A stretch of DNA of 30,398 nt from a virus. A program made the translations under genes and the position numbers. The notes below the pieces were generated by a model. The model ran no database searches, had not been told where the DNA came from, and worked only from the letters and a program-made list of their open reading frames with translations. Shown in pieces: positions 12,285 through 30,398 of the stretch. Each line of letters begins with the position of its first letter. Position 1 is the first letter of the stretch. Location: IMG/VR virus record IMGVR_UViG_3300045996_000198, positions 1 to 30,398 of that record; one strand, written 5' to 3'.

Positions 12285-12502
12285 GTGAGCATCCTCCACA
12301 TCCGTACATACCAGGGCGCACTGTCAGTGCCTTGCATCGTTGCCACTGGACGAACCCATGCCGCCCGACCATCTTTCACCCACTGTTCCACGAAGGCCGC
12401 TAACGGACCAGATTCATTCCGTATCGTGTACGTCATGCCTTCGCAGTACACACTTTTCAATTCAGGTTCCGTAAACGTCTTGAGGCATTTGAATGAACGC
12501 AT
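12275..12502 (-). CDS. Small hypothetical protein (75 aa)
   Basis: The ATG at 12502 forms a TAATG overlap with the preceding stop. A GTG 12 nt upstream is in frame but would overlap more. The protein starts MRSFKCLKTFTEPELKSVYC and contains two cysteines, a basic/aromatic-rich second half (WVKDGRAAWVRP, WYVRMWRMLTWR) and no membrane segment. Short proteins with a 'Y..G..Y.IR...G.LA..V..W...G.' pattern are seen near the tail genes of phages, but I do not assign a family. Its tight coupling on both sides argues that it is translated. Confidence 0.6.
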   Translation of the reverse strand: MRSFKCLKTFTEPELKSVYCEGMTYTIRNESGPLAAFVEQWVKDGRAAWVRPVATMQGTDSAPWYVRMWRMLTWR

Positions 12503-12936
12503 TAGTGTAGACACTCCACAATTCGTTTGAGGCCAGAGCCCGTTGTCTTGAGTGAGGTGCAGGCCATCCCAGTAATCTCAATCTTATTAGCGTCTAGCTG
12601 CTTGGCTGTGATGTTCGTAACCGAGACAGGGCTTTCCAGCGCCTTGACCCTCGTATCCAATGCCGCTACTACGTCCTGCCAGCCGGTATCGACATCAGCA
12701 AAGTACCGCGCCACATTGGAGGATGGCCCACCGTTCGGGACTGTGAGCTTGTAATAGCCGAACTCCGTAATGGAATAGCTTGGTGGATAGGCTGGTATTT
12801 CCTTCAGTACAGTGAATGGCCCTGCCTCAGTCGCGCTGTATTCCAATAGCAAGAACCCATCGGCCGTAGGGTCCCAGACAATAGAAGCCGCCTGAACTGG
12901 GGCAGCAAACAACAGTAGGAAGAATAGAATGAGCAT
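12502..12936 (-). CDS. Secreted FN3-like protein with short C-terminal helix
   Basis: A 144-aa protein starting MLILFFLLLFAAPVQAASIV, a strong signal peptide with a VQA cleavage site near residue 16. The following part (WDPTADGFLLLEYSATEAGP, FTVLKEIPAYPPSYSITEFG, YYKLTVPNGGPSSNVARYFA) resembles a single FN3/Ig-like beta-sandwich with a Pro-rich loop. A heptad-like helix follows (DVVAALDTRVKALES, about residues 88-102), then a last strand section with two cysteines (C125, C142). The start overlaps the 902-aa gene stop by 1 nt. It belongs to a run of four exported-type proteins. Its function is unknown. Confidence 0.65.
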   Translation of the reverse strand: MLILFFLLLFAAPVQAASIVWDPTADGFLLLEYSATEAGPFTVLKEIPAYPPSYSITEFGYYKLTVPNGGPSSNVARYFADVDTGWQDVVAALDTRVKALESPVSVTNITAKQLDANKIEITGMACTSLKTTGSGLKRIVECLH

Positions 12937-15644
12937 TAGAACCCCACTCCTATGGCTGGACTAGCTATCGTGACACATGCCCCTGTGCTTGGCGTCGGTG
13001 TTGCCAGTGCCACTCCAGTTTGGTGATATTCTTGGAAGCAAAAGGTCCGTCCAGCCGTCACATCAGTCGCAAACTTGAGCACACTGCGGCGGGTAAAAGA
13101 CGCATTTTGAGCCATATCTATATTGGGCACTGCCGCTGCCGTCAGTTGCGTCGTGCCATCGTTTGCCGTGAGTGCCCCAGACAGGCAACATGCCACCGTA
13201 CCCGTCACAATGGCGCTGTCGCTGACGGTCCCGAAAAAGGCTACCCCGTCACCTGATGCCGTATCGGGAACTGGCAGCCAAGTGCCGGCCGTGTCGCAGA
13301 GCGCACACGAGTAGTAGAGCTTCAATCCTGTTGGGTCGCAGTCTGCCGCCGTACAGTCAACCTGAGTCACTAATGACACCGCCCCGCCAGTAATAACTGT
13401 CACTGTGGCGCTCACGGCCCCGTAATCCGTTTCTGGGCTCCGTAGTAACTGCCACTGGTGCGCGACTTGGGTATAGGTGCCGGTAGGAGTAGGAGACGTA
13501 GGCTCCCAAATTGCGTAGAGGTCGGCAATGTCCTCCGCTGCAAGAGCCGCGTTGTACCAGCGTGGTTCATCAATCGTGACGCCGCCTGACACGGAATCTC
13601 CAAAGCCTGACGCCCTCCCAAATGTCACATCACTTGCCAGGGTAAAACTGGTATATGATTTCACCGACTGCGAGCCAGTTCCGGCCACAGCATCAACGTA
13701 CAGTGTCGCGACGTCAGTCCCGCTATTCATCACGAGGCAGACGTAATGCCAGCCAGCCGTCACAGGAAAATCACTGTTACTCGCCGCCGTACTGGACTGA
13801 ACCCCTACTGACCATGTACCGGTGATATTCGAGAGGAAGAACCGTTGATTAGTGCCGAGCGAGGACCCGAAGTAGGTTCGCGTTGCCGCTTCTAGCCCTG
13901 TGTTCATCTTCACGCCCATACAGACCGTGAAGGATTGCGTGGACGGGTTGACACCGCTCCCATGCGCGACTGCAATAGAGTCGTCGCCCTGGTCGGCAAA
14001 CTGGACCGCTGAACCGTGCTTACCCGTGACCCACGTCGGCCCGTTGGTCAGCGTACCGTCCTCGTTGTTCGCGCTTTCATCTTCGGCTGTCGTGGGTGTC
14101 GTTCCGCTTGTCCCATCGTCAAGCGTCAAATGGAAGTACGGTGTACTGGGGTCGCTCGGTGGGGCAGCCCCACAGTTATTCGTGACAGACTGGTTGGTGA
14201 ATGCGAGCAGTTCTTGGTTTGTGGTGTTGCCGATCAACGCGGAATCTGTCGTTGCCCCTGTTTGGGCATAGCTGACATCCCACGTTTCACCGCCCGCACA
14301 CACGGCCCCAGAGAAGGTGACTCGCACCACGCTATCTGAACCGGTGAGTTTATTGACTGACGACACGGTGCGTGCCACCCCGCCGACACGCACGCTCCAG
14401 CCAGTGGTCGTGGGGATTACCGGGACGTTGACGGACATCGCAAGCGTTACGTCTAAATTGTTCTCGTTGACCGTAGCAGATGAGAACCCGCCAATGGTTT
14501 CAAATGCCCCTATGTCACACGTCCCGTTACAGGCAACGCCCGTGACGGCCACGCCAGCGTTGATGGCGTTCGTACTGCTTGCGGTCAGCGTGAGATCAGG
14601 AGACCCTGGGATCGGCTCCCCCGCTGTGGTGAAGTTTGGATCAGTCGTTACATTGCCGCTCTCTGTCGCAAACTTGCCAGAACACCCAGAAGTAAAAGCG
14701 GTGACACCTGGAGTCGTCGCAAACGCCACATTGTTTCTCACAATATGATTCCCGCCAGGACTGGAGCAGTCAATCCCGTTTGCCCCAGTTGAGAGTTGAT
14801 TGGCGTTCTCGTAAAAAATGTTATTCTCGATCCGTACCCCTATCGTGCCGGATTGCCACAAGATAATACCGGCCCTGTACTCGCCCCAGGCAAACGTGTT
14901 ATTGGCAATCGTGCCAGTGAATCCGGTGTGATTCGTACTAGGTTTCCCTGAGAGACTGGTACTGCCAGCGGTTTGAATCCCGTATCCGCCAAGCGTTTCT
15001 TCAAACACATTGCGGAAAATCAGCCAGTCTTTCCCAGTGATATACAGGCCGTGGATTTGGTTTTTCGTTCCCGTCCAATGGTATCCAATGCGTTTGAACT
15101 TGTTATAACTGACCGTGCAGGCCCAGCAGTCCCCGAGAACGCCGTTAGCATAGGAGGTTGTGAATACATTTCGCGTAATCAGTATATGGTCGCCTGTCTC
15201 AATCTTGATCCCATCGTAATGTCCGGTAATCGTGAATCCTTCAATAGTCAGGTAGCTGACGGAATTGATCGTCCCGTTAATATGGTCGATACGAATGCGA
15301 CTGACACTGTTACTTGGCGAGGTTGACCACGCGATTACGGGCGTATGCCCCGGATAGTTTTTCAATGTGATGGGGCTTCCTGCCGTGCCGCTATACCGCA
15401 AAAGAATCTCACCGCTATGCGTGTAGGTGCCGTTCTTGACGAGGCAGGTATCCCCAGGCTCATCGGCCTTCGGAGTCGAGCCGCCCGCGCAAGCCGTAAT
15501 CGTCGCTAGTGGTAAATCTTCTGACGTGCCGGGGTTGCTGTCACTTTTGCTGGCATGACCAGCATCCACGTAATAGGTCGTGTTGAGCGCATGAGCAAAA
15601 CTGGGGAAGAGAAGCGCAATAAGCACACTAAGAAGCAACATCAT
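12936..15644 (-). CDS. Secreted multidomain beta-helix / LamG glycan-binding protein
   Basis: At 902 aa this is the largest protein in the window. It begins MMLLLSVLIALLFPSFAHAL, a signal peptide with an AHA site (17-19). A right-handed beta-helix follows, about residues 22-390, with the NTTYYVDAGHASKSDSNPGT start typical of DUF1565/parallel-beta-helix proteins and rungs such as NNVAFATTPGV and NNTFAWGEYRAGI. About 390-485 is an SwmB/Ig-like strand domain (VNENNLDVTLAMSVNVPVIP). About 500-715 is a LamG/concanavalin-like domain (YFHLTLDDGTSGTTPTTAED, KHGSAVQFADQGDDSI). The rest is a beta-rich C-terminus with several cysteine pairs (CTAADCD, CALC). Domain edges are estimates. The start makes a 4-nt overlap with the 259-aa gene. 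It probably binds or cuts a polysaccharide, and export is predicted. Confidence 0.75.
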   Translation of the reverse strand: MMLLLSVLIALLFPSFAHALNTTYYVDAGHASKSDSNPGTSEDLPLATITACAGGSTPKADEPGDTCLVKNGTYTHSGEILLRYSGTAGSPITLKNYPGHTPVIAWSTSPSNSVSRIRIDHINGTINSVSYLTIEGFTITGHYDGIKIETGDHILITRNVFTTSYANGVLGDCWACTVSYNKFKRIGYHWTGTKNQIHGLYITGKDWLIFRNVFEETLGGYGIQTAGSTSLSGKPSTNHTGFTGTIANNTFAWGEYRAGIILWQSGTIGVRIENNIFYENANQLSTGANGIDCSSPGGNHIVRNNVAFATTPGVTAFTSGCSGKFATESGNVTTDPNFTTAGEPIPGSPDLTLTASSTNAINAGVAVTGVACNGTCDIGAFETIGGFSSATVNENNLDVTLAMSVNVPVIPTTTGWSVRVGGVARTVSSVNKLTGSDSVVRVTFSGAVCAGGETWDVSYAQTGATTDSALIGNTTNQELLAFTNQSVTNNCGAAPPSDPSTPYFHLTLDDGTSGTTPTTAEDESANNEDGTLTNGPTWVTGKHGSAVQFADQGDDSIAVAHGSGVNPSTQSFTVCMGVKMNTGLEAATRTYFGSSLGTNQRFFLSNITGTWSVGVQSSTAASNSDFPVTAGWHYVCLVMNSGTDVATLYVDAVAGTGSQSVKSYTSFTLASDVTFGRASGFGDSVSGGVTIDEPRWYNAALAAEDIADLYAIWEPTSPTPTGTYTQVAHQWQLLRSPETDYGAVSATVTVITGGAVSLVTQVDCTAADCDPTGLKLYYSCALCDTAGTWLPVPDTASGDGVAFFGTVSDSAIVTGTVACCLSGALTANDGTTQLTAAAVPNIDMAQNASFTRRSVLKFATDVTAGRTFCFQEYHQTGVALATPTPSTGACVTIASPAIGVGF

Positions 15645-16420
15645 TGCAATAGGACCGGCGCAATAGGCCGTCTCCCTGAAACCGCTGCTTTAATTTCAAT
15701 GGCAATGCCGCCAGAATCTGCTGCGCTCCATGAGGCACTCGGACTGGTATCGTTGGAGGCAATCCACTGGGCTTGGATGGCAGAATCGTTGGTCCCATCA
15801 TCTAGCGCCACATCCGCGAGTTCTGTCCACCCGCCTTCGTTCGTCACGGCTAGGTTAGCGTTCAGACTGAACGTGGCAAACGTGGCGTTATTGGCACTGC
15901 CGAAAGCTGCAAGAGACAGGGCAAGACTTGTCCCGCCAACATTCACGTCCTTATCGCTTTGCACGATGGCCCCAGATCCATTCGTCCCAGAGGTGTCCAC
16001 GCCCGTGCATTCCGCGACAATCCATGACCCACTCAGAGACCCGTCTGCTGCTGCCCAGGTGATCGAGATAGTCCCTGCGGACGGAGACGCCCCCATCGAA
16101 CGAAAGAGCGACAAGAGGTGCGATGGAGAGCCAGCAGTCGAGATGGCCTGCTTGTCAATTTGCACGTATGTCAGCCCGTTTCCGGTGAGTGTGACCGTAT
16201 AATTACCGGCAGTGGTGTCACTCCGATACGGGGCCACTACCGCAACGAGAACGAGAGCATTGGCCGTTGGAGTAACCGAGGCCGTCACATACGGGTCGGT
16301 CCCAACACGATTGGTGGCGTCAGAACCTGATGTCAGCACCGCACAACTCACGGCAGCGTTAGCGGGCATGGCGAACGCAATCATGCAGGCGATGGCCAGT
16401 GACAGCGACAACACGTTCAT
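15641..16420 (-). CDS. Secreted beta-sandwich protein (259 aa)
   Basis: The protein starts MNVLSLSLAIACMIAFAMPANA, a signal peptide with an ANA site at residues 20-22. The mature part is Ala/Thr/Ser/Gly-rich all-beta (VTASVTPTANALVLVAVVAP, ITWAAADGSLSGSWIVAECT) with few charged residues and two cysteine-containing segments. The shape fits a surface or virion beta-sandwich, but I do not recognise a named family. GAGGAG stands 9 nt before the ATG, independent of the preceding stop only 3 nt away. The next gene overlaps by 4 nt (ATGA). Placed between two other exported-type proteins, it is probably part of one functional set. Confidence 0.65.
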   Translation of the reverse strand: MNVLSLSLAIACMIAFAMPANAAVSCAVLTSGSDATNRVGTDPYVTASVTPTANALVLVAVVAPYRSDTTAGNYTVTLTGNGLTYVQIDKQAISTAGSPSHLLSLFRSMGASPSAGTISITWAAADGSLSGSWIVAECTGVDTSGTNGSGAIVQSDKDVNVGGTSLALSLAAFGSANNATFATFSLNANLAVTNEGGWTELADVALDDGTNDSAIQAQWIASNDTSPSASWSAADSGGIAIEIKAAVSGRRPIAPVLLQ

Positions 16421-16422
16421 TT

Positions 16423-17757
16423 TTAGTCACTCCTCGACGTGATGCTGTATTCCAGCTTGAATCCGATGTGATGGAGCGTGGCTACCGCCGTGGTTGTTCC
16501 TGTTGCATCAAGCTGATAGCGCCAATACAGCATGTCACCAGCCGCACAGGTGCCAGCAGGGGTTACAGCGGCTGACGTGGTAAAGTCGTTTTGGTTACTC
16601 CCTGTTACGCCAGCATCGTCAATGGCTACCTCAGTGCCCCAGGTGCTTGACGGGGCTTCGCCGTTACCACGGCACTGTGCTGCAATGTCACCATTGAGGG
16701 CGCTCGTGTCGGCGGCGGTTTGAAGATAGACGTGTTCAAATGTGACAGTCCCGCCATCCCAACCGTCAGGCATTTTGATTGAGCCATAGATGGTAGCCGC
16801 GTCATTGTCGGTTGTGATAATTGTCCAGATCTTCGGACCGGAATTGATTGTCACTTCTGCTGGCGCTGCCGCCTGCGTCCCGTCAGTAGAGAGCGAACCA
16901 GCGCCAAACCAGACACTTTTCTTGGGACGATAGGCCGTGGCGTAGGTCCACATAGCCAAGGTGGAAGCTGCGTCAGGGTCTACCGTCTCAGCACATGAAT
17001 CGCCCTCCACATCGAACAGGCACCATGTCTGATTCGTCATTATTTCCGTTTTGGTGTTCGCCGCTTCATCAGGCAGAATGTGAATCCCGGTAGACGCATC
17101 GTGCCAAATACACACTCGCTTGGAGGCCGCATCGCCACCGACGCAAAAGCCATTCGCTTCTGATGTGGCCCCGTCAATGACCTTGCCTTGGTCAAAGGCT
17201 TGATCCAGCGTTGGGGTGCTCGGTGAGGCGAGTGACACAGCCCCGCTCCCGTCATCAGTCAACAGCCCATCAGGGACAGTCAGCGTTGTCACTCCGCTCA
17301 CACTGGGATCTCCGTCCTCTTCAGCCACAACAATTCCGCTGCTCCCACCACCACCGCCGCCACCACGCCGAGCCAGCGTCAACAACCCTTTGACAGTCAC
17401 TGTCCCGCCCGTGTAGGCCGACACTCTGGCCCTAAACTTGGAGAACCCAGCCACGTTGCAGAAGTACAACCCGCTAGCAGTGGCTGTAGTCACCAGAGCC
17501 CCTGAAGTGCTTGCCGTTGACGTGCAGACGGCTGACAACCAGTTGGAATCATCGGCAGTCGCTTCAAACGTCACAGTGGCCGTATCGCTAATGACCACTT
17601 GGAGGCCGATAGTTCCCCACCCCTCAACCTGTAAGGCCGTTCCGTCACCAGTGGCAGACACCCCATCTTGCAGCACTTGAACCGGCTTAAATTCACGGCT
17701 CCAAGCGGGACTGGCTAAAATGAGGCCCAGAAGGACCCCTAAGACTATTTTCCGCAT
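16423..17757 (-). CDS. Secreted protein with poly-glycine linker (444 aa)
   Basis: The protein starts MRKIVLGVLLGLILASPAWS, a classical Sec signal peptide with cleavage near residue 20. Residues about 25-130 form one beta domain (VEGWGTIGLQVVISDTATVTF). A seven-glycine linker (132-138) leads to a longer region with DGLLTDDGSGAVSLASPSTP at about 163-182. The region after about 280 (TINSGPKIWTIITTDND, then a GGTVTFEHVYLQTAADTSAL stretch) looks like a structural fold. A perfect AGGAGG sits 4 nt before the ATG. The start overlaps the methyltransferase gene by 13 nt. Virion assembly takes place in the cytoplasm, so an export signal here is unexpected. No family is assigned. Confidence 0.65.
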   Translation of the reverse strand: MRKIVLGVLLGLILASPAWSREFKPVQVLQDGVSATGDGTALQVEGWGTIGLQVVISDTATVTFEATADDSNWLSAVCTSTASTSGALVTTATASGLYFCNVAGFSKFRARVSAYTGGTVTVKGLLTLARRGGGGGGGSSGIVVAEEDGDPSVSGVTTLTVPDGLLTDDGSGAVSLASPSTPTLDQAFDQGKVIDGATSEANGFCVGGDAASKRVCIWHDASTGIHILPDEAANTKTEIMTNQTWCLFDVEGDSCAETVDPDAASTLAMWTYATAYRPKKSVWFGAGSLSTDGTQAAAPAEVTINSGPKIWTIITTDNDAATIYGSIKMPDGWDGGTVTFEHVYLQTAADTSALNGDIAAQCRGNGEAPSSTWGTEVAIDDAGVTGSNQNDFTTSAAVTPAGTCAAGDMLYWRYQLDATGTTTAVATLHHIGFKLEYSITSRSD

Positions 17758-19430
17758 AGATCCTCCTGACTCATGGCAATGACTAACGAATCCCCATACA
17801 CACGGATGTCATCGAGCAACCCTAGTGCTTTCCCGATTTCCCGCAATTCAAAGAACTGTTGAGCGAAGGCGGCGTAGTGCATCGTCGTCGTAAACTTGCG
17901 GCCGTCAATCTTGACGGGAATCACAGCACCCAGTTCACCAACGCCAGCAATGCCCTTGGCGTAATGCCCTGCCGTCACATGACAATCGAAACCAAAGAGG
18001 TGCAGCCGCTTACAGCCCAGCATCATGGCTATTGAAAGTGAGCACAGCACAACGCTGCCTCCAGTGTTGATGAGCGCCCTCTTATTGGAAGGCGAGACGC
18101 CATCAAGCTCCTGGTCCGTGAAACCCCTGTTTGTACTGTGGAAGAGGTAGACGGATTCCCCGTTCAGCGCATCCAGCACTGACGGCCGGCACTGCGAAGC
18201 CACAAGGTAGGTCAATCCATCAGGAATGGTCTCAAAGGCTTCGACCACATCATCCGAGGCATCCTGAGCAACGACATAGTGTGGTGTAAGCCCATGCTTC
18301 GTACACCACGGCAACATGCGTTCAATGGCGAGCACGACGCCTCCAGCCTGTTGCTTTGCCTTAATCGTCTCAACCTGTGTCTCGACTGACGGTCCACCAC
18401 CAATCACGATGGCTTCCTGCCCTGCGTGCTTGTTAATGAGGTCAGCAATGTCGGGAAGGTTGCGAGACATGGAGGACGCGACAAAACTCTTACGTTCCGC
18501 TAAGGGGAACTTATTGACGCCACGTACATGCGGAAGAACCAGCGTGCCTTTTTTCCAGAGATAATTCTGAATGTCTCTGATGTAACGGGCCTGTGGTCTG
18601 TTTGATTTCTCCCTGAAGCCGTCAGCTTTCTTCCAGAGTGACGTAATCGAGTGATCGGCCCTGAGTTCCTCAAAGCCGCAGCACTCCATCACATAAATCA
18701 GCGTCTCTGCTGTAAACTGCCAGGGGTGAGCGTTCTGAAAGACACGGCCCAATTCACAGGCGAACAAACCCGGCATTGACACATAGAGCATCCCATCGTC
18801 ACTGAGCAGGCCATGTATCCGCTTCAACATGGACTCAATGTCGGTGGCATGTTCCAGCACATGATTCATCAGAATCAGGTCGGCTTTGGTGCCAAGTATC
18901 TCCAGGGTTTCAATCGAACCAACCTCAATCGGCAAGCCTCTATCGCGCCCAAACGACACCCGCTCCGGTCCATAATCCACGCCATGCACTTGTGCGCCGG
19001 CATCCAGAAACGGTTGCAGCCACGCCCCAGCATTGCACCCAATATCGAACACGGTGGTAGGCTTGAACTCGTACTGCTCTACGAGGTAATTGCGGAGAGC
19101 CTCAGCGACTTGTTGACCATGGGCGAAGTCCTCTTCGTTCGTATCCTCGTCCGTGTCATAAATGTGGCGGTATTCGTGTTCATAGAACTGCGCGTAACTG
19201 TCCTCAGTCATGCGGGGGTTGGCATAGAGAATCCCGCACTCCGAGCACAGACGCATCTTGTGGTCGAAGCCGTAACGGTCAAACTCCGTCACGACTTGGG
19301 ACTTGGTAGAGCCGCAGAAGCAGGCTACGGGTTCCGTTTTATAGACACCCGTAGCGAGCTTCCTCTTAACGCGGCCGATGTAATAGGCTGCGGCTGGAGC
19401 AATAGCAGCCTCTACATGGTCAGACCTCAT
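17745..19430 (-). CDS. Fusion: zinc-knuckle class I methyltransferase + MptE-like/DUF115 domain
   Basis: A 561-aa fusion. Residues 37-65 hold a CxC...CxxC zinc site (C37, C39, C62, C65) before a class I methyltransferase: motif I VFDIGCNAGAWL (127-138), D152 in HGVDYGPERV, and LILMNHVLEHATD (185-197). This layout is typical of Methyltransf_23-type enzymes acting on sugar or lipid-linked glycans. From about residue 338, EAIVIGGGPSVETQV, LAIERMLPWC and HYVVAQDASDD, then INTGGSVVLCSLSIAMMLGC, HLFGFDCHVTAGHYAKG, match the MptE-like/DUF115 fold. That fold is shared with archaeal pterin pyrophosphokinase MptE and with Maf flagellin nonulosonate transferases. It starts 3 nt after the 242-aa gene. 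The acceptor is unknown; a glycan or protein-glycan target is likely. Confidence 0.85.
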   Translation of the reverse strand: MRSDHVEAAIAPAAAYYIGRVKRKLATGVYKTEPVACFCGSTKSQVVTEFDRYGFDHKMRLCSECGILYANPRMTEDSYAQFYEHEYRHIYDTDEDTNEEDFAHGQQVAEALRNYLVEQYEFKPTTVFDIGCNAGAWLQPFLDAGAQVHGVDYGPERVSFGRDRGLPIEVGSIETLEILGTKADLILMNHVLEHATDIESMLKRIHGLLSDDGMLYVSMPGLFACELGRVFQNAHPWQFTAETLIYVMECCGFEELRADHSITSLWKKADGFREKSNRPQARYIRDIQNYLWKKGTLVLPHVRGVNKFPLAERKSFVASSMSRNLPDIADLINKHAGQEAIVIGGGPSVETQVETIKAKQQAGGVVLAIERMLPWCTKHGLTPHYVVAQDASDDVVEAFETIPDGLTYLVASQCRPSVLDALNGESVYLFHSTNRGFTDQELDGVSPSNKRALINTGGSVVLCSLSIAMMLGCKRLHLFGFDCHVTAGHYAKGIAGVGELGAVIPVKIDGRKFTTTMHYAAFAQQFFELREIGKALGLLDDIRVYGDSLVIAMSQEDLCGK

Positions 19431-19433
19431 TCG

Positions 19434-20162
19434 TTACGCCTGCCTCGTCGGTAGACGGTCGAATGTCAGGTAAATGTATCCCGCACCAGCGGTGCTCGAG
19501 CTGGTTGTATTCGTGTACACAATGCTGGCTCCTGACGTAGCATTAGCACGGTAGTATTTCTTCCGTGCATACGTGCCAGTCGCATTCGCCAACAGCGCAC
19601 CGAACAAACCAGACGTAGACACCAGGGCTTCCTCTAACAGCGTGATCGGGAAGCCAGTCGTGGACGCGGCCACGCCATCAGCAAACCCGTCAGGGTCGGT
19701 AGAGGTCCCGATGTCCAACACGCCGCCAGTCATGGCCGTCACCACATCAAGCTCAATGTCCTTCACCAACATGGCCGCTGAAATCGTGAAGCCGCTGTTG
19801 ACAACGGTTTCCGATGCGCCCGAGTAGGTGTAGGGAACCACCAGCTTGTAGAGGAACTTGTCAGGGTCCACATCAATGCGATGCTGAGACGGTGTGACCG
19901 ATTCGCAAAAGAACGAATGGCCGCTGGCCGTCAGGACGGACAAATCCAGCGAAGTCACGCTAGAAGCCGTCCAGAACCGAATGACGCCATTGGTGAACGT
20001 CATCGGGTTGGAAGCTGATGTGCCGTTCACATCGCTGTAGATGGTCGCTTCAGCAGGCGAGCCATCCGTCAGCACGTTGCAGACACCGGAATCGTCATCA
20101 ATGAAGCTCCGGCTTCTGGTGTTGAATAACTGGAAATACCACTCTGTTATGTTCACGCCCAT
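19434..20162 (-). CDS. Structural-type protein of unknown family (242 aa)
   Basis: The protein starts MGVNITEWYFQLFNTRSRSF with GAGAG ahead of the ATG. It is all-beta in character and rich in Ser/Thr/Ala: NPMTFTNGVIRFWTASSVTS, then PFRIDVDPDKFL-like, then SGASETVVNSGFTISAAMLV and a repetitive C-terminal half (ATSGASIVYTNTTSSSTAG). No enzymatic motif, signal peptide or membrane segment is seen. It follows the capsid and decoration genes after a hairpin-bearing gap, so it is probably a virion protein (head fibre or neck). I cannot name the family. Confidence 0.65.
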   Translation of the reverse strand: MGVNITEWYFQLFNTRSRSFIDDDSGVCNVLTDGSPAEATIYSDVNGTSASNPMTFTNGVIRFWTASSVTSLDLSVLTASGHSFFCESVTPSQHRIDVDPDKFLYKLVVPYTYSGASETVVNSGFTISAAMLVKDIELDVVTAMTGGVLDIGTSTDPDGFADGVAASTTGFPITLLEEALVSTSGLFGALLANATGTYARKKYYRANATSGASIVYTNTTSSSTAGAGYIYLTFDRLPTRQA

Positions 20163-20498: not shown

Positions 20499-21563
20499 TT
20501 AGTCGGCAACAGCGGCCGCGAATACGTGAACAACGCCGTTGTCCTCGTCACTTTCGCCGCTCACTGTGCTGCGTCCGTAGACAATCTTCTCGATTCCACG
20601 AATCTCATGGAGTTCGGCCACATAGTCGTGACCCAAATCCTGGTTCGTGTCCTCAGTGAACTTCGATGTTTGACCCCAAACCACCGCACCGGCCTGTGCT
20701 CCCATGAGCAACCCATGGCCGCACTGAATGGTCGAGGACACCAATTCCACCCGATCCCACTCGTAAATCAGCACGCCGTTCCAAGAGCCCTTGAAGCTGG
20801 CTCCTGTGTAGAGCACATGACCGTTCCCCTGAATCGGAGGCACGTTCAGTTGTGCGTTCTTCCACGATGCATCGTCCGTGATGAGGTCGCGCACGCTGTA
20901 CGGGTGATGAACCGAAATGAACCACTCTTGGAAGGACTGCCCAACCTGCACCTTCATCGGGCGAATCTTCGCCGTGGCATTGATCGGAATAAGCGCCTTG
21001 CGCTTCGCAATATCCAACATCGAGGTCGTCAGCTTGTCGCTGGTGTTGTCGATGTTGCCCAGTGCTGTCGCATGGGTCGCGTTCCAGTTGGAATCCGCTG
21101 CCCCATAGAGGTAACGACCACGAACGCGGCCGCTGGCGGTATCCACCATGGCCGTCATAATGTCGTCCTCGAGCTGTTGCTTGGATTGGTCAACGAGGGC
21201 TTCACGAACCTGCATCAGCACATCCCAGGGGACACGCTTCTGCGTCATCGGCACATCTTCGACTTTGACAACTTGCCGGTCATTGTCGATGGTGATGCGC
21301 TGGCCGTAGAAGTCCACGCGGCCTTCGTTACCTTCGCCTTTATTGCGTCCGGTAACGTGGCCACCTTTGAGTTTTGAGCGAATGCCAATCGTGATGGCAT
21401 CGCCCGGTTTCTTGTTCAGGTCCATCTTGACCTGAATGGGCATATCTGAGGATTCCCCCATGACATGCGCCCACCAGAGCTGCTGTAGATATTCTGACTG
21501 TATCCCGGTCTCCCACTGTTCAGCGGTAAGGTCGTGACCTGTCAGGACTTCGGTGTACGACAT
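20499..21563 (-). CDS. Major capsid protein, N4-gp56-like
   Basis: A 354-aa protein starting MSYTEVLTGHDLTAEQWETG. The order 'EYLQQLWWAHVMGESSDMP', 'KPGDAITIGIRSKLKGGHVT', 'GRVDFYGQRITIDNDRQVV', 'VPMTQKRVPWDVLMQVREAL', 'ASGRVRGRYLYG', 'FQEWFISVHHPYSVRDLITD' is that of the N4-gp56/HK97-fold capsid family used by many podovirus-like metagenomic phages. AAGGA stands 8 nt before the ATG. The preceding gene is the scaffold and the next a decoration-type protein, as in other head operons. It builds the icosahedral shell. Confidence 0.9.
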   Translation of the reverse strand: MSYTEVLTGHDLTAEQWETGIQSEYLQQLWWAHVMGESSDMPIQVKMDLNKKPGDAITIGIRSKLKGGHVTGRNKGEGNEGRVDFYGQRITIDNDRQVVKVEDVPMTQKRVPWDVLMQVREALVDQSKQQLEDDIMTAMVDTASGRVRGRYLYGAADSNWNATHATALGNIDNTSDKLTTSMLDIAKRKALIPINATAKIRPMKVQVGQSFQEWFISVHHPYSVRDLITDDASWKNAQLNVPPIQGNGHVLYTGASFKGSWNGVLIYEWDRVELVSSTIQCGHGLLMGAQAGAVVWGQTSKFTEDTNQDLGHDYVAELHEIRGIEKIVYGRSTVSGESDEDNGVVHVFAAAVAD

Positions 21564-23280: not shown

Positions 23281-23486
23281 TTACCCATTAAGAAATACTT
23301 TTTGACCCCTCGCACCTTGAGCACCCGTTGGTGCTTATCGAAATCGTCTATGAGTTCATCGACCTCTTGATGCTTCATCGCATCCTTAGAGCCAAACGCT
23401 TCAGCAAACTTCCGCAAGTTGACCTGCGTAATGGTCTTGGAATCCTGTATCTCATCCATGTCAATGCGGATTTCTTTATGCGCCAT
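23277..23486 (-). CDS. Small charged protein (69 aa)
   Basis: Starts in a TAATG overlap with the portal stop: MAHKEIRIDMDEIQDSKTIT, then NLRKFAEAFGSKDAMKHQEV, and a basic tail (KHQRVLKVRGVKKYFLMGK). Helical and highly charged, no cysteines. Tight coupling to the portal and to the next gene suggests it is expressed. The function is unknown. Confidence 0.65.
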   Translation of the reverse strand: MAHKEIRIDMDEIQDSKTITQVNLRKFAEAFGSKDAMKHQEVDELIDDFDKHQRVLKVRGVKKYFLMGK

Positions 23487-25600
23487 TACTTCGCCTTTGC
23501 TGCTGGTTTCGGCTTCGCCTTTTCCTTCTCAATGTCTTTGTCTTTCTTCTGTAGCTCGGTTTGCCGGTGCATCAGTTCCACCAGCATTTCTCGCTTAGAG
23601 TCTGAGCCGTGCTTAATCAGTTCCACTTCCTGTCGCTTATCGTTCATGCGCTCCACGCTGGCCTGTTTCGCTAAGGCTTCCTCGAGAGCAAGGCGCTTCG
23701 CTGATGGCTCACCCTGCGTCAGTTCGTACTCAGCCAACATCGGCAAGCCGAGCTTGGTATGGGCAAAGACGGCCTTTTCCTCAGGCGTCAGTTCCGACCA
23801 GTTCATAGCAATGGAAATCTTCGGCTCCGGTGGAGGTGCTTGCGCCATGCCGTCCAGAATCTTCATTAGCCCTTCCTTCTGCTTGGGCTTGATGCTAGAC
23901 ATCTCAAGAAGGAACTTTGCCATCCCTGTCCCGAATGGCATGACTTGAGGAAGCAGATTGGCGACGATTTCAAACTGCTCCGTTTGGAGCGTCAGCGAAT
24001 CCTCAACGTCAGCAATAACGAAGTTGAACCTCATATCCCGCATGGCATCCAACCGAGACTTTGGAAGCTGAATGACTTTGGGAGCCGCAGGATCGTCGGT
24101 AATCTGGAAAACAATGTCCTCGTTGAAGTGCTGGCAGATGAGGCCCCAGACCTTATTGAGCTTGATTCTGCGGGTCCGGCGAACATTGGTGAGCAATGGC
24201 ATATTCACCCAGTCCGTCATCATCTGCTCACGGGCTTTGCCCACCCCGCTCCGCATTTGCGAAGCCGCGCCCTGGTTCGTGGGATCTTCACCGCTGACCA
24301 TGTTGAAGGCTTGCTTAGATTCAGCGTGCATGGCCATTTGTGACTGGCCCATGTCCTGATTCTTGATGAGCTGGACCACTTCATCGGCCTTGCCCCTGAC
24401 TTTCATAATTCCGTCAGGACGGCCCTTCTCATTGGCGAACTCAGCCCAGTCCTCCACAGCGTTCTGGCTGACAATGGCCTGATTGGTGTTAATCAGGTGC
24501 ATCGCCTTAGATCGGCGCTTATTGATTTCCTGGCTGATGCTGATGAGGTTTCTGACAGGTCCGAATGGTTCGCCTGATTTCTTGCGGTCTGCGAAGTACG
24601 GCACGAATGGGAACATGCCGTCCTGGTCCTGGTATCTATCGTGATAAATGAGGGTGCCGGCACAGTAGATGCCCAGCCACATTTCCTCGCCTACTACACG
24701 GTCAATAGACGCTCCCGGTATCCCCTCAGCCGCTTTCATGGCTTGGCGCGGTCCCAGGTAGTCCAGTTCCACCCGCACGCCTTCAGGCGTAATCAGGATG
24801 GTTTTGACGACTTTGCGCTTGTAGTAGATTTCGACAGGACGGAGACGGCCACGGTTCGGGTCAACATAGGTCCAATCCGTCATACGCAGTACGGTTGGAT
24901 CTATGGGCATTCCGGTTCCACCCAACCCGCTGGGCAGATGGTTCACGCACTGGCGTAGCTCTTTGGCCTTTTCAGGCCAGAGGCAGATGGCATCTTCAAG
25001 GTCGATCCACTTGGACCGACAAATGAACTTGGCATCCTCGTTCCAGTCGTATTTGCGGGAATGGGGGTCGGGGAAGATGTAAAAGGGGTTCTCGTTGCGA
25101 ATGACGATGGAGGGCTTGCCGTCAGAGTCCTTCGCGGAACAAATCTCTATGACGCCAAAGCCCCCGGTATAGCCGTCCTTAATCTGGTCAGACTCTTCAA
25201 ACTCAGCCCCGTTGACCTGATCCACCCACCTGAAGATGTCAGAGGCGCTAGAAGCGGTCTGCTCATCTACAACAGCGTTACGGCCGAGAACCGTCACAGT
25301 CGTATGCTGCCGCTGGAACTGGCCCAGAATGCGGTCTACTTTGGGCTTGATGAGGTTTTCGGTAACAACCGGCTGGCCGCGTTCCTCGAGCATGGCCCGT
25401 TCAAAGGCGGTCCACTGCTCACCCTCGTAGAACTTGTAATCCTGGTCAGCGTTAGTGCGCCATGCTCTCCAGACGGGCGAGAACAAGGCTGAACCAAACA
25501 TGCGCTCCAGGCGCACAACTACATCGCGGTCAGTTTCCCGACCTATCGTGTATTCACTGATATTGAGATTGCTGCTTGTGTGTGAGTAGGTAGATGCCAA
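23486..25600 (-). CDS. Portal protein, P22-like
   Basis: A 704-aa protein starting with TTG (MASTYSHTSSNLNISEYTIG). Family features: YKFYEGEQWT (56-63), a GQPVVTENLIKPKVDRILGQ stretch (75-94), and NENPFYIFPDPHSRKYDWNE (169-188) followed by CRSKW, the P22-like portal signature. The 'DRYQDQDGMFPFVPYFADRK' and SGVGKAREQMM segments match crown/stem regions. The C-terminus is Lys-rich and helical (ELQKKDKDIEKEKAKPKPAA). It forms the dodecameric DNA entry channel and nucleates head assembly. The only ribosome-binding site (AGGGAG) lies inside a hairpin in the leader. It follows a candidate promoter, so it may be the first gene of the head operon. Confidence 0.9.
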   Translation of the reverse strand: MASTYSHTSSNLNISEYTIGRETDRDVVVRLERMFGSALFSPVWRAWRTNADQDYKFYEGEQWTAFERAMLEERGQPVVTENLIKPKVDRILGQFQRQHTTVTVLGRNAVVDEQTASSASDIFRWVDQVNGAEFEESDQIKDGYTGGFGVIEICSAKDSDGKPSIVIRNENPFYIFPDPHSRKYDWNEDAKFICRSKWIDLEDAICLWPEKAKELRQCVNHLPSGLGGTGMPIDPTVLRMTDWTYVDPNRGRLRPVEIYYKRKVVKTILITPEGVRVELDYLGPRQAMKAAEGIPGASIDRVVGEEMWLGIYCAGTLIYHDRYQDQDGMFPFVPYFADRKKSGEPFGPVRNLISISQEINKRRSKAMHLINTNQAIVSQNAVEDWAEFANEKGRPDGIMKVRGKADEVVQLIKNQDMGQSQMAMHAESKQAFNMVSGEDPTNQGAASQMRSGVGKAREQMMTDWVNMPLLTNVRRTRRIKLNKVWGLICQHFNEDIVFQITDDPAAPKVIQLPKSRLDAMRDMRFNFVIADVEDSLTLQTEQFEIVANLLPQVMPFGTGMAKFLLEMSSIKPKQKEGLMKILDGMAQAPPPEPKISIAMNWSELTPEEKAVFAHTKLGLPMLAEYELTQGEPSAKRLALEEALAKQASVERMNDKRQEVELIKHGSDSKREMLVELMHRQTELQKKDKDIEKEKAKPKPAAKAK

Positions 25601-26156: not shown

Positions 26157-27695
26157 CTATACGCACTGCCACGGCACGGTTTTAGATTGCTGGCCCTTGC
26201 GACGGGCTGCTAGGGGGATACGGCTGATGCAGTACCTACGGGCAAATTCCCGCAAGCACAGCGCATCAGCCTTGTTCGGTGACGCTACGCCCCTTTTCCT
26301 AAGTTCCTTTTTGCTTTCAATCCTGATTTTGCCGTTTTCTTCCCTCCAGTGAATATCGGTAAGCTCTCCAAGTAGTTCATCATCCATCGGGAGGCAGATT
26401 TGGCGCTTTTCAAACGCTTCACGAAGGTTCCACCAGAGTTCGTCACGGAGACGGTGGAACCTTTCAACCTGACTTGGCACTTCTGCAACGTTGACATCAT
26501 AGAGGTTTCTGAGGTTGGCCACTCGACTGAGATGTGAGTAAACCCCTGCACCGAGACCGATGACGTCGATGGCTGCGGCATACTGCCCCTCCTCATCAGA
26601 AAGTAAGTCCCTCAAGCACCCTTCTACCTTCCAGGCTATCTGTGTCGTATCCATCCCCTGGACTTCATAGAACGGCATCGAAGGCGAATGGGGAATAATC
26701 ACATGGCCCCTGCCTGGAATAATGACGGTCTTATCATCCCCCTGGCCACCTACGTCTACACCAATGGTCAGCGGCTCCAATGGGTCAATTTCGCTTTCCC
26801 GGTGCATCGCATCATAAGCCCAATCCCACGGTATCAAGACATCGGGGGCCGCTAGAGGCGGTAAGCCTTTGACGCGGATACGGTAGAAGTTCGATTCCTT
26901 GCCGTACTTCTCAGCCAATCGCGCATGATCGGCTTCCATGTTGGGAGCGAATACCGGCCGCGTCTTGGCTAATTCCTCGCAATCCCAGTGGTGACAGGCC
27001 CAGTATTTACGGAACTTTGATTGAGACTCGATGGCAAAGCCATGAGAGCGGGTGGGGTTGAAAATCATCAGAATCAGGTTGCACACACCGCCTAAACCGC
27101 CTTCCAGCGGCTTGAACACGGCATCCGGTACACCTGACGCCTCGTCTACAATAATCGTCACATAGCGTTCATGGAGACCGCCCAAGACTTCAGCTTGCTC
27201 CTCAGGGCTGCTATTCTTCTGGATGGTACGCGGTTCAATGAACCACTCGGACCCACCGCCTTCTTTCATGTAGATTTTGGTAGCTCGATGCTCAATGTTG
27301 GTCTTGAGCATTTCAGAACCACGCCAGAGCTTGTGAAACTCAGGCCACAACACTGACTCAATCTGTGGACCAGCTGGAGCGGTTACGCGGGTTTTAGAAT
27401 GCGGGAAGCAAAAGAGCGTATGCATCCCGATCCAGCCGGCAAAGTGGGACTTGCCTGAATCGTGACCGCTCTGAATGCTCATGCCCATTTTGTCCTTATA
27501 GGGCTTTTCCTCTTCCTCCAGTGGCGTTCCCTTAGCACTCTTGACCTTCGCCCGTATGAGTAGCCCCCAATCCTTTAACGCTGCTTCCTGCTGGAATGTC
27601 GGCTCCTCCTTGAACACTTCGCGCACGAATGTCAGTGGCGAAAACTGCCACTCCATGATTTTCTTAATCATGCGCTGTTCTTGGGAGAGGGCCAT
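26157..27695 (-). CDS. Terminase large subunit
   Basis: A 512-aa protein starting in a TAATG overlap with the cytidylyltransferase stop. The ATPase has a Walker A-type SGHDSGKS (76-83), Walker B IIVDEA (181-186) and a coupling segment IFNPTRSHG (211-219). The C-terminal nuclease is seen as LTIGVDVGGQGDDKTVI with D314, AAIDVIGLGAG with D377, and ASPNKADALCL with D477, the acidic triad positions of RNase H-fold terminases. It translocates and cuts concatemeric DNA at the portal. A small terminase is not visible upstream, where three metabolic genes sit instead. Confidence 0.93.
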   Translation of the reverse strand: MALSQEQRMIKKIMEWQFSPLTFVREVFKEEPTFQQEAALKDWGLLIRAKVKSAKGTPLEEEEKPYKDKMGMSIQSGHDSGKSHFAGWIGMHTLFCFPHSKTRVTAPAGPQIESVLWPEFHKLWRGSEMLKTNIEHRATKIYMKEGGGSEWFIEPRTIQKNSSPEEQAEVLGGLHERYVTIIVDEASGVPDAVFKPLEGGLGGVCNLILMIFNPTRSHGFAIESQSKFRKYWACHHWDCEELAKTRPVFAPNMEADHARLAEKYGKESNFYRIRVKGLPPLAAPDVLIPWDWAYDAMHRESEIDPLEPLTIGVDVGGQGDDKTVIIPGRGHVIIPHSPSMPFYEVQGMDTTQIAWKVEGCLRDLLSDEEGQYAAAIDVIGLGAGVYSHLSRVANLRNLYDVNVAEVPSQVERFHRLRDELWWNLREAFEKRQICLPMDDELLGELTDIHWREENGKIRIESKKELRKRGVASPNKADALCLREFARRYCISRIPLAARRKGQQSKTVPWQCV

Positions 27696-28402
27696 TACTT
27701 AGACTCCAGGTAGGCTAGTACGTCATTCACATGGAAATTGTTATGACCAAACATCTCGTAAATGCCAGCGATGAAGTCGTAATCCTCTTGGGTGTTGACA
27801 TCTAGGCGGTAGTTACAGCTAGTCTTGCCAAACGTGATGCCACATTCCGGATACTCATTGTCCAGAAACTTATCGAGAAAGTATTTATGTGGGTGCTCAC
27901 GGTAGTCTGGACGACCCTTTGAGATTCTATCTAACCACTTCAGCCTGCTCATGCTGAATACTTCAGCGCCTATACCGTCAACCCACCTCCACTCACCTAC
28001 ACCGCCATAGTATGAGCGCACCATATCGGTAGTGTTGGAATAGAAGATGTGCGGAGTATCAAGGTAATCTTCGATGGCTTTGTCTATAAATTCAGGCTGA
28101 ATGCACGGGTTATCACACGGCACCCGCACGATAATGTCAGCATGACAGCGTTCGGCTACGGTCAGATAGCGTGCCACTAAGTCGTTCTCGTCTACTAACG
28201 GCGCATGAACACGGCAGGGCATCGCAGAAAAAGCGTTCTCGTCTTGAGGAGGCACGGCTAACACCACATGGTCTAACCGCTTGGCCCTTTTGACTCGCTC
28301 AATAATGTTTTCGGTCATGCTCTTGCCGGCCAAGGGTAATAGAGCTTTCCCTTTGAGCCTGGTACTGCCCATTCTTTGCTGTAATATCGCTACAACCTTC
28401 AT
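27695..28402 (-). CDS. SpsF-like cytidylyltransferase
   Basis: A 235-aa protein. I chose the ATG at 28402, in an ATGA overlap with the radical SAM stop; a longer start at 28429 would overlap more. Residues 8-19 are QQRMGSTRLKGK, the nucleotide-binding loop of the CMP-sugar synthetase/SpsF family. RVPCDNPCIQPEFIDKAIED carries the D.P motif, and a further IGAEVFSMSRLKWLDRI and RLDVNTQEDYDFI match the family order (COG1861). Members attach CMP to sugars, for example in nonulosonic-acid or spore-coat polysaccharide biosynthesis. Substrate unknown. It sits between the radical SAM gene and the terminase, both joined by tiny overlaps. Confidence 0.85.
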   Translation of the reverse strand: MKVVAILQQRMGSTRLKGKALLPLAGKSMTENIIERVKRAKRLDHVVLAVPPQDENAFSAMPCRVHAPLVDENDLVARYLTVAERCHADIIVRVPCDNPCIQPEFIDKAIEDYLDTPHIFYSNTTDMVRSYYGGVGEWRWVDGIGAEVFSMSRLKWLDRISKGRPDYREHPHKYFLDKFLDNEYPECGITFGKTSCNYRLDVNTQEDYDFIAGIYEMFGHNNFHVNDVLAYLESK

Positions 28403-29196
28403 GCGCTTGGAGTTCCCCAGTGAAGGCATGATTTACATAACGGATTAGCTAAGTCCCTACGTCCCGCCTTATGCGCCTCAATCATGCGTTGCCGTGTCGG
28501 TCCGTTCCAAATTGATTCGAGTGTTTCTGTGTTAGCGTCTCCGATGTATCCATGTCCTTGAGCATCGAGCCGGTTACAAAGATACATACGCCCGTCTTGA
28601 GCAATCGTTGGACGATGCAATGCGTCAAGGCAGATTCCAACTTCTGGCACCACCGGAGCGCGATGAGCATACTTGCTGTTATCAATCGGGACATGAATTA
28701 ATCTCCTAATCACCCGAACGCCTAACGCTTCGTACTCTTCGATACCGTCTTGGAGCATGTCGCCAACGATTTTAACTTGGACGATAGGCAGTCTGTCATT
28801 TTTTGCCGCAAGGAATCCCTTAAGTACCTTGAGCTGGGCTTCTGCGTCTTTATCTCCCCTAAACACTGAGACTGTAAGTGTCGTACATCTTCCAATAATT
28901 GCGTCAGCAACTCTTTCGAGATTAAGCCCGTGCGTGACAATCGACGTAACGAATCCATCAAAGAGCGACAATGCGTCTTTAAGTCTTGGATATGCCGTTG
29001 GCTCTCCGTCTCGATGGAAGCTGATAACGATTCCGCTAGGTGTTTGAACACGTATCCTTTCGAGGAGCCCATAGTCCATATCTCCGTAAGTAATAGGGTT
29101 CACATCAGGATTCTGATGGCCGCACATGGGACACAGGTGCGTCTTATCGCACTTAGAAGTCAGCTCGATGTTAAGTTGTGCTAGTCCTGACAGCAT
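28399..29196 (-). CDS. Radical SAM protein with truncated SPASM/twitch end
   Basis: A 265-aa protein using the ATG at 29196; a farther start at 29265 would overlap the aminotransferase by 95 nt. LNIELTSKCDKTHLCPMCGH contains the [4Fe-4S] cysteines as CX5CX2C (C16, C22, C25), one spacing wider than the usual CX3CX2C. The 'HRDGEPT' near residue 61 plays the GGEP role. The C-terminal C189-x12-G-x4-C207 followed by C254-x2-C257 resembles a SPASM/twitch auxiliary-cluster region, but ends without the last cysteines. Chemistry and substrate are not predictable. Coupling with an aminotransferase and cytidylyltransferase suggests a small-molecule or sugar pathway. Confidence 0.85.
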   Translation of the reverse strand: MLSGLAQLNIELTSKCDKTHLCPMCGHQNPDVNPITYGDMDYGLLERIRVQTPSGIVISFHRDGEPTAYPRLKDALSLFDGFVTSIVTHGLNLERVADAIIGRCTTLTVSVFRGDKDAEAQLKVLKGFLAAKNDRLPIVQVKIVGDMLQDGIEEYEALGVRVIRRLIHVPIDNSKYAHRAPVVPEVGICLDALHRPTIAQDGRMYLCNRLDAQGHGYIGDANTETLESIWNGPTRQRMIEAHKAGRRDLANPLCKSCLHWGTPSA

Positions 29197-30094
29197 CCCA
29201 CGCCCCCATTTGACCCCTGATGTCACACGCAACTCGTTCAGACCAGCGGTCCATAATCTTTTCATACATCGGTGGCACTAAGCCCATGCCTGAGCCAATC
29301 GGCCGGCCTTCAATATGCGAGACCCAAAAGGCACAGAACGGGGTAGCGGTCAGCCAAATCTCTTCCGCGTTAATCAAATCTCTTACCGTCAGTTCATCCC
29401 ACATGACATGCAAGCCTTCCTCTTCCGCTAAATCAGCCACCATGCGTTGAGAAATCCCTGGTAAGGCTTCATCCGTGGTGCAAATCAAGTGCTCATCGTC
29501 TACTAAGGCACAGATATTGGCACCGGGACATTCTGCTACCTTGTCGTCATAGGTAAGCATCAGCGCCCAATCGGGAGCGGCTTTTTGTTGGGCTAAGTGG
29601 AAGTGTAATCTGCTACGGTGCTTGGCTCTGGCCGGCACAGACAGCGAGGGAACCTGACGAACAGGCGAGATAACTAATTTAACCCCATCGTCAAAGTAGT
29701 GAGATAGGCCGGATACGGTGTACCGCAGGGGAAACGCTGCTGCGTAGGCGTAAGAATGCGTAATGGTGCCTTCGATATTATGGTACATCTCGGCACAGCC
29801 AGGGCTAGCCACCAGAAGCAATCGGTATTCATCCTCCACCCCCATAGGGTTTCTATCCGTCAGTTCCCGCACAACGTCATGCCAGCCCCATTTGCCTGGT
29901 AATGGGTCCACAATGCCTAACAGCTTCATGGACTCACGTAATCGGCTAATATGTTCGTCTAAGCGGAAATGTTGGTGAGAGAAGCTGCGGGTCATTTCAA
30001 AGCAGGCGACACCTTGCATGACATCGAGCGAGTAGATAGAGATTTTCGCATCGGCTTCAGCAATCCACTCGCCATTCATATAAACGGTTCTCAC
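29171..30094 (-). CDS. Class IV aminotransferase (fold-type IV PLP enzyme)
   Basis: I chose GTG at 30094, with GGAGG 8 nt upstream and a GTGA overlap with the helix-turn-helix stop; an ATG 15 nt earlier is the alternative. The 307-aa protein has the fold-type IV pattern: MNGEW, DVMQGVACFEMTRSF, FRLDEHISRLRESM, PARAKHRSRLHFHLAQQ with the likely PLP lysine (about residue 158), VAECPGANICALV, TDEALPGISQRMV and AEEIWLTAT. Relatives are branched-chain or D-amino-acid aminotransferases and aminodeoxychorismate lyase. Sequence does not discriminate among them. First of three coupled biosynthetic genes upstream of the terminase. Confidence 0.88.
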   Translation of the reverse strand: MRTVYMNGEWIAEADAKISIYSLDVMQGVACFEMTRSFSHQHFRLDEHISRLRESMKLLGIVDPLPGKWGWHDVVRELTDRNPMGVEDEYRLLLVASPGCAEMYHNIEGTITHSYAYAAAFPLRYTVSGLSHYFDDGVKLVISPVRQVPSLSVPARAKHRSRLHFHLAQQKAAPDWALMLTYDDKVAECPGANICALVDDEHLICTTDEALPGISQRMVADLAEEEGLHVMWDELTVRDLINAEEIWLTATPFCAFWVSHIEGRPIGSGMGLVPPMYEKIMDRWSERVACDIRGQMGAWDAVRTSTT

Positions 30095-30282: not shown

Positions 30283-30398
30283 ACTGCCCCCTCTTGGTAG
30301 GCCCGCTTAAAAATATAGAACTCGCTTTCATGCAAATCGCCAATGATGACTTTGGCCGTGTAGCTCACCAACTCCCAGCCACTAGCCCCCATTTCGTT
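30279..30398 (-). CDS. DUF4177-like protein, C-terminal part (cut by window edge)
   Basis: From the window edge a frame without stops reads NEMGASGWELVSYTAKVIIG, then DLHESEFYIFKRAYQEGAV and stop (39 residues). The 'N.lGaeGWELVs......yYiFKR' pattern is typical of the DUF4177 family of small proteins. Its TGA overlaps the TTG start of the helix-turn-helix gene by 2 nt, which supports real translation of both. The N-terminal part lies outside the window. Confidence 0.7.
   Translation of the reverse strand, partial: NEMGASGWELVSYTAKVIIGDLHESEFYIFKRAYQEGAV

Follow-up and report, generated by a model that had tools for sequence, protein, structure and literature searches.

What does a phage make with an aminotransferase, a radical S-adenosylmethionine (SAM) enzyme and a cytidylyltransferase that it encodes in one chain with its terminase? 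This question is raised by IMG/VR virus record IMGVR_UViG_3300045996_000198, a 30.4-kb stretch (30,398 nt) from an uncultured phage, which was analyzed at its full length and is called the window here. We propose that the three genes are part of a larger cassette, NeuB synthase–aminotransferase–radical SAM enzyme–cytidylyltransferase plus a Maf-like transferase, by which the phage would make a CMP-activated amino-ulosonic sugar resembling the nonulosonic acids (NulOs) by a short route and put it on a virion protein; for this proposal as a whole we see an even balance of arguments. The features at the cassette end of the window are:

30283–30398, minus strand: contig end, with the cassette's NeuB gene just beyond (judged from the near-identical contig L002)
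30091–30282, minus strand: 63-aa helix-turn-helix (HTH) open reading frame (ORF); phrog_6156, 1.1e-8; similar to the HTH tails of HNH endonucleases from phages
29171–30094, minus strand: class IV (fold IV) pyridoxal phosphate (PLP) aminotransferase (AT), GTG start; PF01063 (Aminotran_4), 2.9e-28
28399–29196, minus strand: twitch-type radical SAM enzyme (rSAM), BtrN-like by profile and fold; SPASM, 4.6e-8 (Pfam)
27695–28402, minus strand: SpsF/KdsB-type cytidylyltransferase (CMT; CMP-sugar synthetase); PF02348 (CTP_transf_3), 1e-21
26157–27695, minus strand: terminase large subunit (TerL); phrog_2, 3.9e-24

From the HTH ORF to TerL these genes form a single overlapping chain. HTH and AT overlap by 4 nt (GTGA), AT and rSAM by 26 nt (29171–29196), rSAM and CMT by 4 nt (ATGA), and CMT meets TerL in a TAATG at 27695 (1 nt). 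The GTG start of AT at 30094 lines up with the ATG start in the relatives L006 and L007, and this alignment supports it. A preliminary description of the stretch had reported three biosynthetic genes head to tail with overlaps of 26, 4 and 1 nt, with which our coordinates agree, and had assigned them to the class IV aminotransferases, the radical SAM enzymes and the SpsF-type cytidylyltransferases; in searches of Pfam, NCBIfam and PDB sequences AT consistently came out as a fold-IV aminotransferase, rSAM as an rSAM/SPASM protein and CMT as a cytidylyltransferase of the KdsB/SpsF type. None of the three enzymes lacks the catalytic residues expected of its family, a point that the preliminary description had singled out for checking.

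The PDB matches of AT were branched-chain aminotransferases (BCAT), D-amino acid aminotransferases (D-AAT) and (R)-amine transaminases (best 7.6e-18). K158 falls in the PLP lysine column and is invariant in six divergent phage copies, as are E188, N193 and the GIS loop (G213-I214-S215), so that both the PLP lysine and the phosphate loop are present. For CMT the matches included the cytidylyltransferase 6oew (3e-17) and KdsB (7.5e-9), and Q8, R10, R15-L16, K19, D97-N98-P99 and I106-D107 are invariant in nine copies. All three cysteines of the radical SAM (RS) cluster of rSAM (C16, C22 and C25, CX5CX2C) are invariant in 20 copies, and the same holds for C189-x17-C207 and C254-x2-C257, which fits one twitch auxiliary cluster. 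By profile (hmmsearch, 20-row profile) the best PDB relative of rSAM is BtrN (4m7s, 2.4e-10), and a Foldseek search with its AlphaFold model (pLDDT 82) placed BtrN closest as well (2.9e-8, TM 0.53/0.64), with SpeY further down (1.4e-4). In butirosin synthesis a transaminase aminates the ketone that BtrN has made. The BtrN reaction itself is the oxidation of 2-deoxy-scyllo-inosamine, an amino-cyclitol alcohol, to this ketone (PMC9012708). The likeness to BtrN and the transamination in butirosin synthesis thus provide a chemical rationale for the pairing of rSAM and AT, namely alcohol to carbonyl to amine.

A NeuB-family synthase was found in the relatives. L002, whose proteins are 99.7–100% identical to those of the window across HTH-AT-rSAM-CMT-TerL, carries NeuB at 1997–2836, followed by HTH, AT, rSAM, CMT and TerL. 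Of 27 related viral records, 22 have NeuB, and those without it are mostly short or cut; it is also present in 24 of 31 further ones. Its profile matches Pse synthase, SpsE and NmNeuB (3e-50 to 3e-61 overall), with values of 1e-50 to 1e-61 for solved synthases of sialic and pseudaminic acid. In the barrel, the residues E8, K36, Q38, K113, S116, S138, S201, H203, H224 and D235, invariant in 14 copies, line up with residues of NmNeuB that we take to be those for phosphoenolpyruvate (PEP), metal and acceptor.

Single-protein scans of IMG/VR yielded 8–11 contigs per cassette protein, and profile scans raised the number of rSAM-bearing loci to 25 and later 55; the gene maps of the relatives were drawn with tblastn and home-made hidden Markov models. 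Within the capsid/TerL/portal lineage of the window, 24 IMG/VR contigs, near-duplicates among them, contain all four of NeuB, AT, rSAM and CMT, and they do so in three gene orders. The first is that of the window (NeuB-AT-rSAM-CMT-TerL-portal). In the second, TerL-NeuB-CMT-AT-rSAM-portal, the cassette lies between TerL and portal (about ten relatives), and the third, in L079, runs from the major capsid protein (MCP) over a Ser/Thr-rich protein and the Maf-like gene to NeuB-AT-rSAM-CMT. L083 has NeuB-AT-rSAM-TerL without CMT. That the four genes have been rearranged and yet not dispersed speaks for one shared function. The ratio of non-synonymous to synonymous substitution rates (dN/dS) between close relatives is about 0.04–0.11 for AT, 0.18–0.24 for rSAM and 0.11–0.13 for CMT where dS can be estimated; dS exceeds dN by far in each of these genes, which are under purifying selection. 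The 24 contigs in three orders and the low dN/dS together indicate that the grouping is not due to chance. Co-occurrence of the trio elsewhere, on which the preliminary description had made its idea depend, thus speaks in its favor. Its remark that the trio occupies a position where the small terminase is often found does not hold generally, as the TerL-cassette-portal relatives and the cassette behind the Maf-like gene in L079 demonstrate. With the cassette position varying among relatives, we rejected a replacement of the small terminase.

More distant phages, on contigs of up to 203 kb, carry the set with substitutions (REPLACEMENTS). A NeuA-type synthetase with a GSKGxPGKN motif takes the place of the SpsF-type enzyme, and a class III aminotransferase (PF00202) is found where the class IV enzyme is absent; in L049 (G028) the set is present alongside an unrelated TerL of the Terminase_3 family. 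Such functional (non-orthologous) replacement strongly supports a reading of the two slots as 'CMP-ulosonate synthetase' and 'aminotransferase'. Among the close relatives L003, L004, L006 and L009, the nucleotide identity of CMT falls to 33–68% in its middle (about residues 100–200), compared with 70–97% over much of the rest, and rSAM shows a similar patchwork. Recombination seems to swap parts of both genes, judging from these identity patterns, and such exchange possibly changes the sugar specificity.

A candidate for the last step, and candidate acceptors, are encoded near the capsid gene of the window:

17745–19430, minus strand: fusion protein MT-Maf, 561 aa; zinc-ribbon sugar-C-methyltransferase-like domain (residues ~25–265) and Maf/MptE-like domain PF01973 (residues ~310–555)
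19434–20162, minus strand: conserved Ser/Thr-rich (24%) protein between MCP and MT-Maf, without Pfam match; candidate acceptor
20499–21563, minus strand: MCP, alternative acceptor; PF13252, 2.2e-32; phrog_334
23486–25600, minus strand: P22-like portal protein (context); PF16510, 2.3e-91

MT-Maf matches PF01973 at 6.2e-24 (85.1 bits versus a cut-off of 34.6) and Methyltransf_23 at 2.1e-14, and Foldseek returned the sugar C-3-methyltransferases MtmC, TcaB9 and KijD1 as well as the Maf structure 5mu5 (1.2e-11). PF01973 is Maf_flag10, the central domain of Maf proteins, which is structurally like the sialyltransferase Cst-II, and Maf proteins transfer CMP-activated NulOs to Ser/Thr residues of flagellin (PMC11339370). 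By family and predicted fold, MT-Maf is a candidate CMP-sugar protein glycosyltransferase. In most lineage contigs its gene comes after the conserved protein downstream of the capsid gene, and in L079 it abuts the start of NeuB. From the position of MT-Maf beside the Ser/Thr-rich protein and the capsid gene and from this junction with NeuB we infer that a virion protein is the likely target. PF01973 is present in the long lineage contigs covering the head region, an observation whose weight is limited by phylogenetic inertia. TAL-effector matches of MT-Maf in the PDB sequence search were discarded, since they add up from numerous repeat matches, insignificant in themselves, to one short 'HGLTP' stretch.

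In the pathway that we propose, NeuB would join PEP and a host-derived sugar aldehyde to a 3-deoxy-2-ulosonic acid, the BtrN-like rSAM would convert one hydroxyl to a carbonyl, and AT would convert the carbonyl to an amine; these two steps might act on the precursor or else on the ulosonic acid itself. The SpsF-type enzyme would make the CMP-sugar, and MT-Maf would move the sugar, perhaps methylated, onto serines or threonines of a virion protein, for which the product of 19434–20162 or the capsid protein is the likeliest choice; there the sugar might serve protection or adsorption. The sequences themselves show the gene families, the catalytic residues, the co-occurrence and the linkage, while substrate, order of steps, amine, acceptor and purpose are inferred. 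A CMP-activated ulosonic acid is well supported as the product; that rSAM and AT install the amine we regard as fairly probable, and for a transfer to a virion protein the arguments are slightly on the positive side. These three judgements are not independent of each other. The core idea of the preliminary description, an amino-modified CMP-activated sugar, is supported and made more precise by NeuB in the relatives, the NeuA-type replacement and the likeness of rSAM to BtrN; the partners NeuB and MT-Maf had escaped it.

Several observations weigh against this proposal. NeuB lies outside the window, the contig being cut just before it, and is present in relatives only. The SAF domain (PF08666), which in other NeuB proteins lies at the C-terminus and completes the sugar site, was found in none of 22 viral records; the phage proteins mostly stop at ~272–302 aa, where this domain would start, and for this reason the acceptor sugar may be an unusual one. 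The PDB relative 6ncs (290 aa) is likewise short. The RS motif is CX5CX2C in 15 of 20 rSAM copies including that of the window, a departure from the CX3CX2C found in the other five. AT is nearest to amino-acid and amine transaminases and not to those acting on sugars, and class IV enzymes act mostly on amino acids. This would suit an explanation in which AT and rSAM yield some other small molecule, an amino acid or a cofactor, and merely co-travel with a sugar pathway of NeuB and cytidylyltransferase, and some marine phages do have NeuB and NeuA with no BtrN-like rSAM near by. Against such a separation, the four genes stay linked across three gene orders, the set recurs in the phage with the Terminase_3 TerL, and the AT slot is kept while the AT class changes; we therefore consider it quite unlikely. 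Some phages use rSAM, PLP enzymes and glycosyltransferases in DNA hypermodification (cf. Pyle 2024, cited in PMC12619734), and the CMP-sugar or the rSAM/PLP chemistry could serve this purpose here. To our knowledge, however, NeuB and CMP-sugar synthetases belong to no DNA-modification pathway, and no base-priming enzyme was found among the window proteins scanned against Pfam, the window being part of a genome, which leaves hypermodification highly improbable.

The remaining doubts concern the transfer. The structural model of MT-Maf is of modest confidence (pLDDT 72, pTM 0.50), and its N-terminus is the methyltransferase match in place of the Maf N-terminal domain; it also lacks the C-terminal helical domain and ends shortly after PF01973. 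This family, named MptE-like in Pfam, also holds archaeal 6-hydroxymethylpterin diphosphokinase, and our control matches for it were archaeal, so that the protein could be a diphosphokinase of pterins or nucleotides with no link to the cassette. The fold match to Maf 5mu5, the fusion with a sugar-C-methyltransferase-like domain and the junction with NeuB in L079 make this unlikely. PF01973 is missing from most of the more distant cassette-bearing phages (5 of 31 above the cut-off), and some of the larger ones encode ordinary glycosyltransferases (Glycos_transf_1/2). Sets of NeuB and CMP synthetase normally serve surface polysaccharides, as in the Moritella record described below, and prophage genes altering host NulOs are reported (PMC12053666, PMC6586298). 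The CMP-ulosonate might accordingly alter a surface glycan of the host (O-antigen or capsule), excluding other phages or releasing progeny, rather than decorate the virion. In this lineage, however, the cassette is located inside the late head/packaging operon, its conserved partner is a soluble Maf-like domain beside the capsid gene, and among the window proteins scanned against Pfam neither a flippase nor a polymerase was matched; an action on the host glycan is thus rather unlikely in our view, and we retain the decoration of the virion as our preferred reading.

A comparison with characterized systems shows where the phage system departs from them. With NulO biosynthesis (sialic, pseudaminic and legionaminic acids; NeuB/PseI/LegI and NeuA/PseF/SpsF) it shares the unit of NeuB-family synthase and CMP-sugar synthetase, but it has a class IV AT and a BtrN-like rSAM instead of the nucleoside diphosphate (NDP)-sugar dehydratase (PF01370) and DegT aminotransferase (PF01041), neither of which was found in the lineage contigs searched, several of them fragments. 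There is thus no sign of the usual pseudaminic/legionaminic acid route, and since the SAF domain is missing as well, we regard the system as a variant of NulO/Maf-type protein glycosylation and not as the standard NulO pathway. A SIS (GmhA-like) gene beside NeuB was noticed in L010 as the sole case among the lineage contigs examined. The phage rSAM shares its profile, its fold and four auxiliary cysteines with the twitch rSAM dehydrogenases BtrN (butirosin) and SpeY (spectinomycin), which are accompanied by BtrS-type transamination, but differs from them by its RS motif in most copies and by its genomic pathway, and its activity is a prediction. Like the Maf flagellin glycosyltransferases of Campylobacter, Aeromonas, Magnetospirillum (5MU5) and C. 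botulinum, MT-Maf has a PF01973 core and a predicted CMP-ulosonate donor, whereas its domain ends differ as described above and its gene lies beside capsid genes and not beside flagellin. The nearest characterized analogue is the Shewanella oneidensis sfm operon, in which a 290-aa NeuB (SfmA), a methyltransferase and an adjacent Maf are found in one locus, as in the phage, and for which O-glycosylation of flagellin was shown by mass spectrometry (PMC3765264). It differs in modifying a bacterial flagellin and in having a thiamine pyrophosphate (TPP) enzyme and an ATP-grasp protein in the operon, and that paper makes no use of the terms aminotransferase, radical SAM or cytidylyltransferase. The phage genes could amount to an undescribed compact route to amino-ulosonic acids (SAF-less NeuB, BtrN-type rSAM, class IV or III transaminase and CMP synthetase) combined with an MT-Maf that O-glycosylates the phage's own capsid or decoration protein in a sialylation-like manner, which we consider possible, if a little short of probable.

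We found little precedent for the set. AT, rSAM and CMT had no match in 50,697 INPHARED records at E<=1e-5 and none in PHROG, and MT-Maf had none in INPHARED, so that the earlier statement that phages rarely carry the trio is true for named phages. NeuB had three INPHARED matches, two uncultured viral records, with no BtrN-like rSAM or aminotransferase near by, and one bacterial contig (the Moritella record). No sequenced phage isolate among those searched carries the gene set. One scan of bacterial genome contigs found a single rSAM relative (29%, Magnetococcales), whose 20.8-kb locus gave no NeuB, AT or CMT matches; in the phylum of this relative, 3 of 399 genomes had matches, the Magnetococcales genome included, and no bacterial cassette was found in these genome scans. 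A literature search of open-licence papers returned no phage-encoded CMP-ulosonate route with rSAM/AT and Maf.

Further observations concern the surroundings of these genes. The HTH ORF, of which L003 has a 56% identical copy upstream of AT, is probably a bystander. HNH endonuclease genes are inserted between or beside cassette genes in L003 (10822–11220), L009 (1574–2020) and L022 (7757–8425), and the HTH ORF of the window may be a remnant of such a gene. An intein-like insert that contains a LAGLIDADG domain splits TerL in L010 (3654–6263; 869 aa). Right after MT-Maf, four consecutive genes (window 12502–17757, minus strand) have signal-peptide-like N-termini, and the relatives G009, G018 and G024 have at least one such gene in about this position. 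It is unusual for the late operon of a phage to encode exported proteins. An ADP-ribosyltransferase-like polyvalent-protein domain is encoded at 8981–9922 on the minus strand (PF18760, 9.8e-8). NeuB relatives of the cassette kind occur in at least 400 IMG/VR stretches (e.g. L110–L174), many with NeuA-like genes; in some of them class III aminotransferases and B12-binding radical SAM enzymes are the partners.

Glycosylation of phage virions is known in a few groups, for example mycobacteriophages, but we know of no case in which the sugars are CMP-activated ulosonic acids of the phage's own making. If our reading is true, the system would be a viral counterpart of Maf flagellin glycosylation and would include a new enzymatic path to amino-ulosonic acids, bypassing NDP-sugar dehydratases; the acceptor encoded next to the capsid gene could be tested directly. 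Given the number of IMG/VR stretches with NeuB relatives, this chemistry may be widespread among phages and yet nearly absent from isolate collections.

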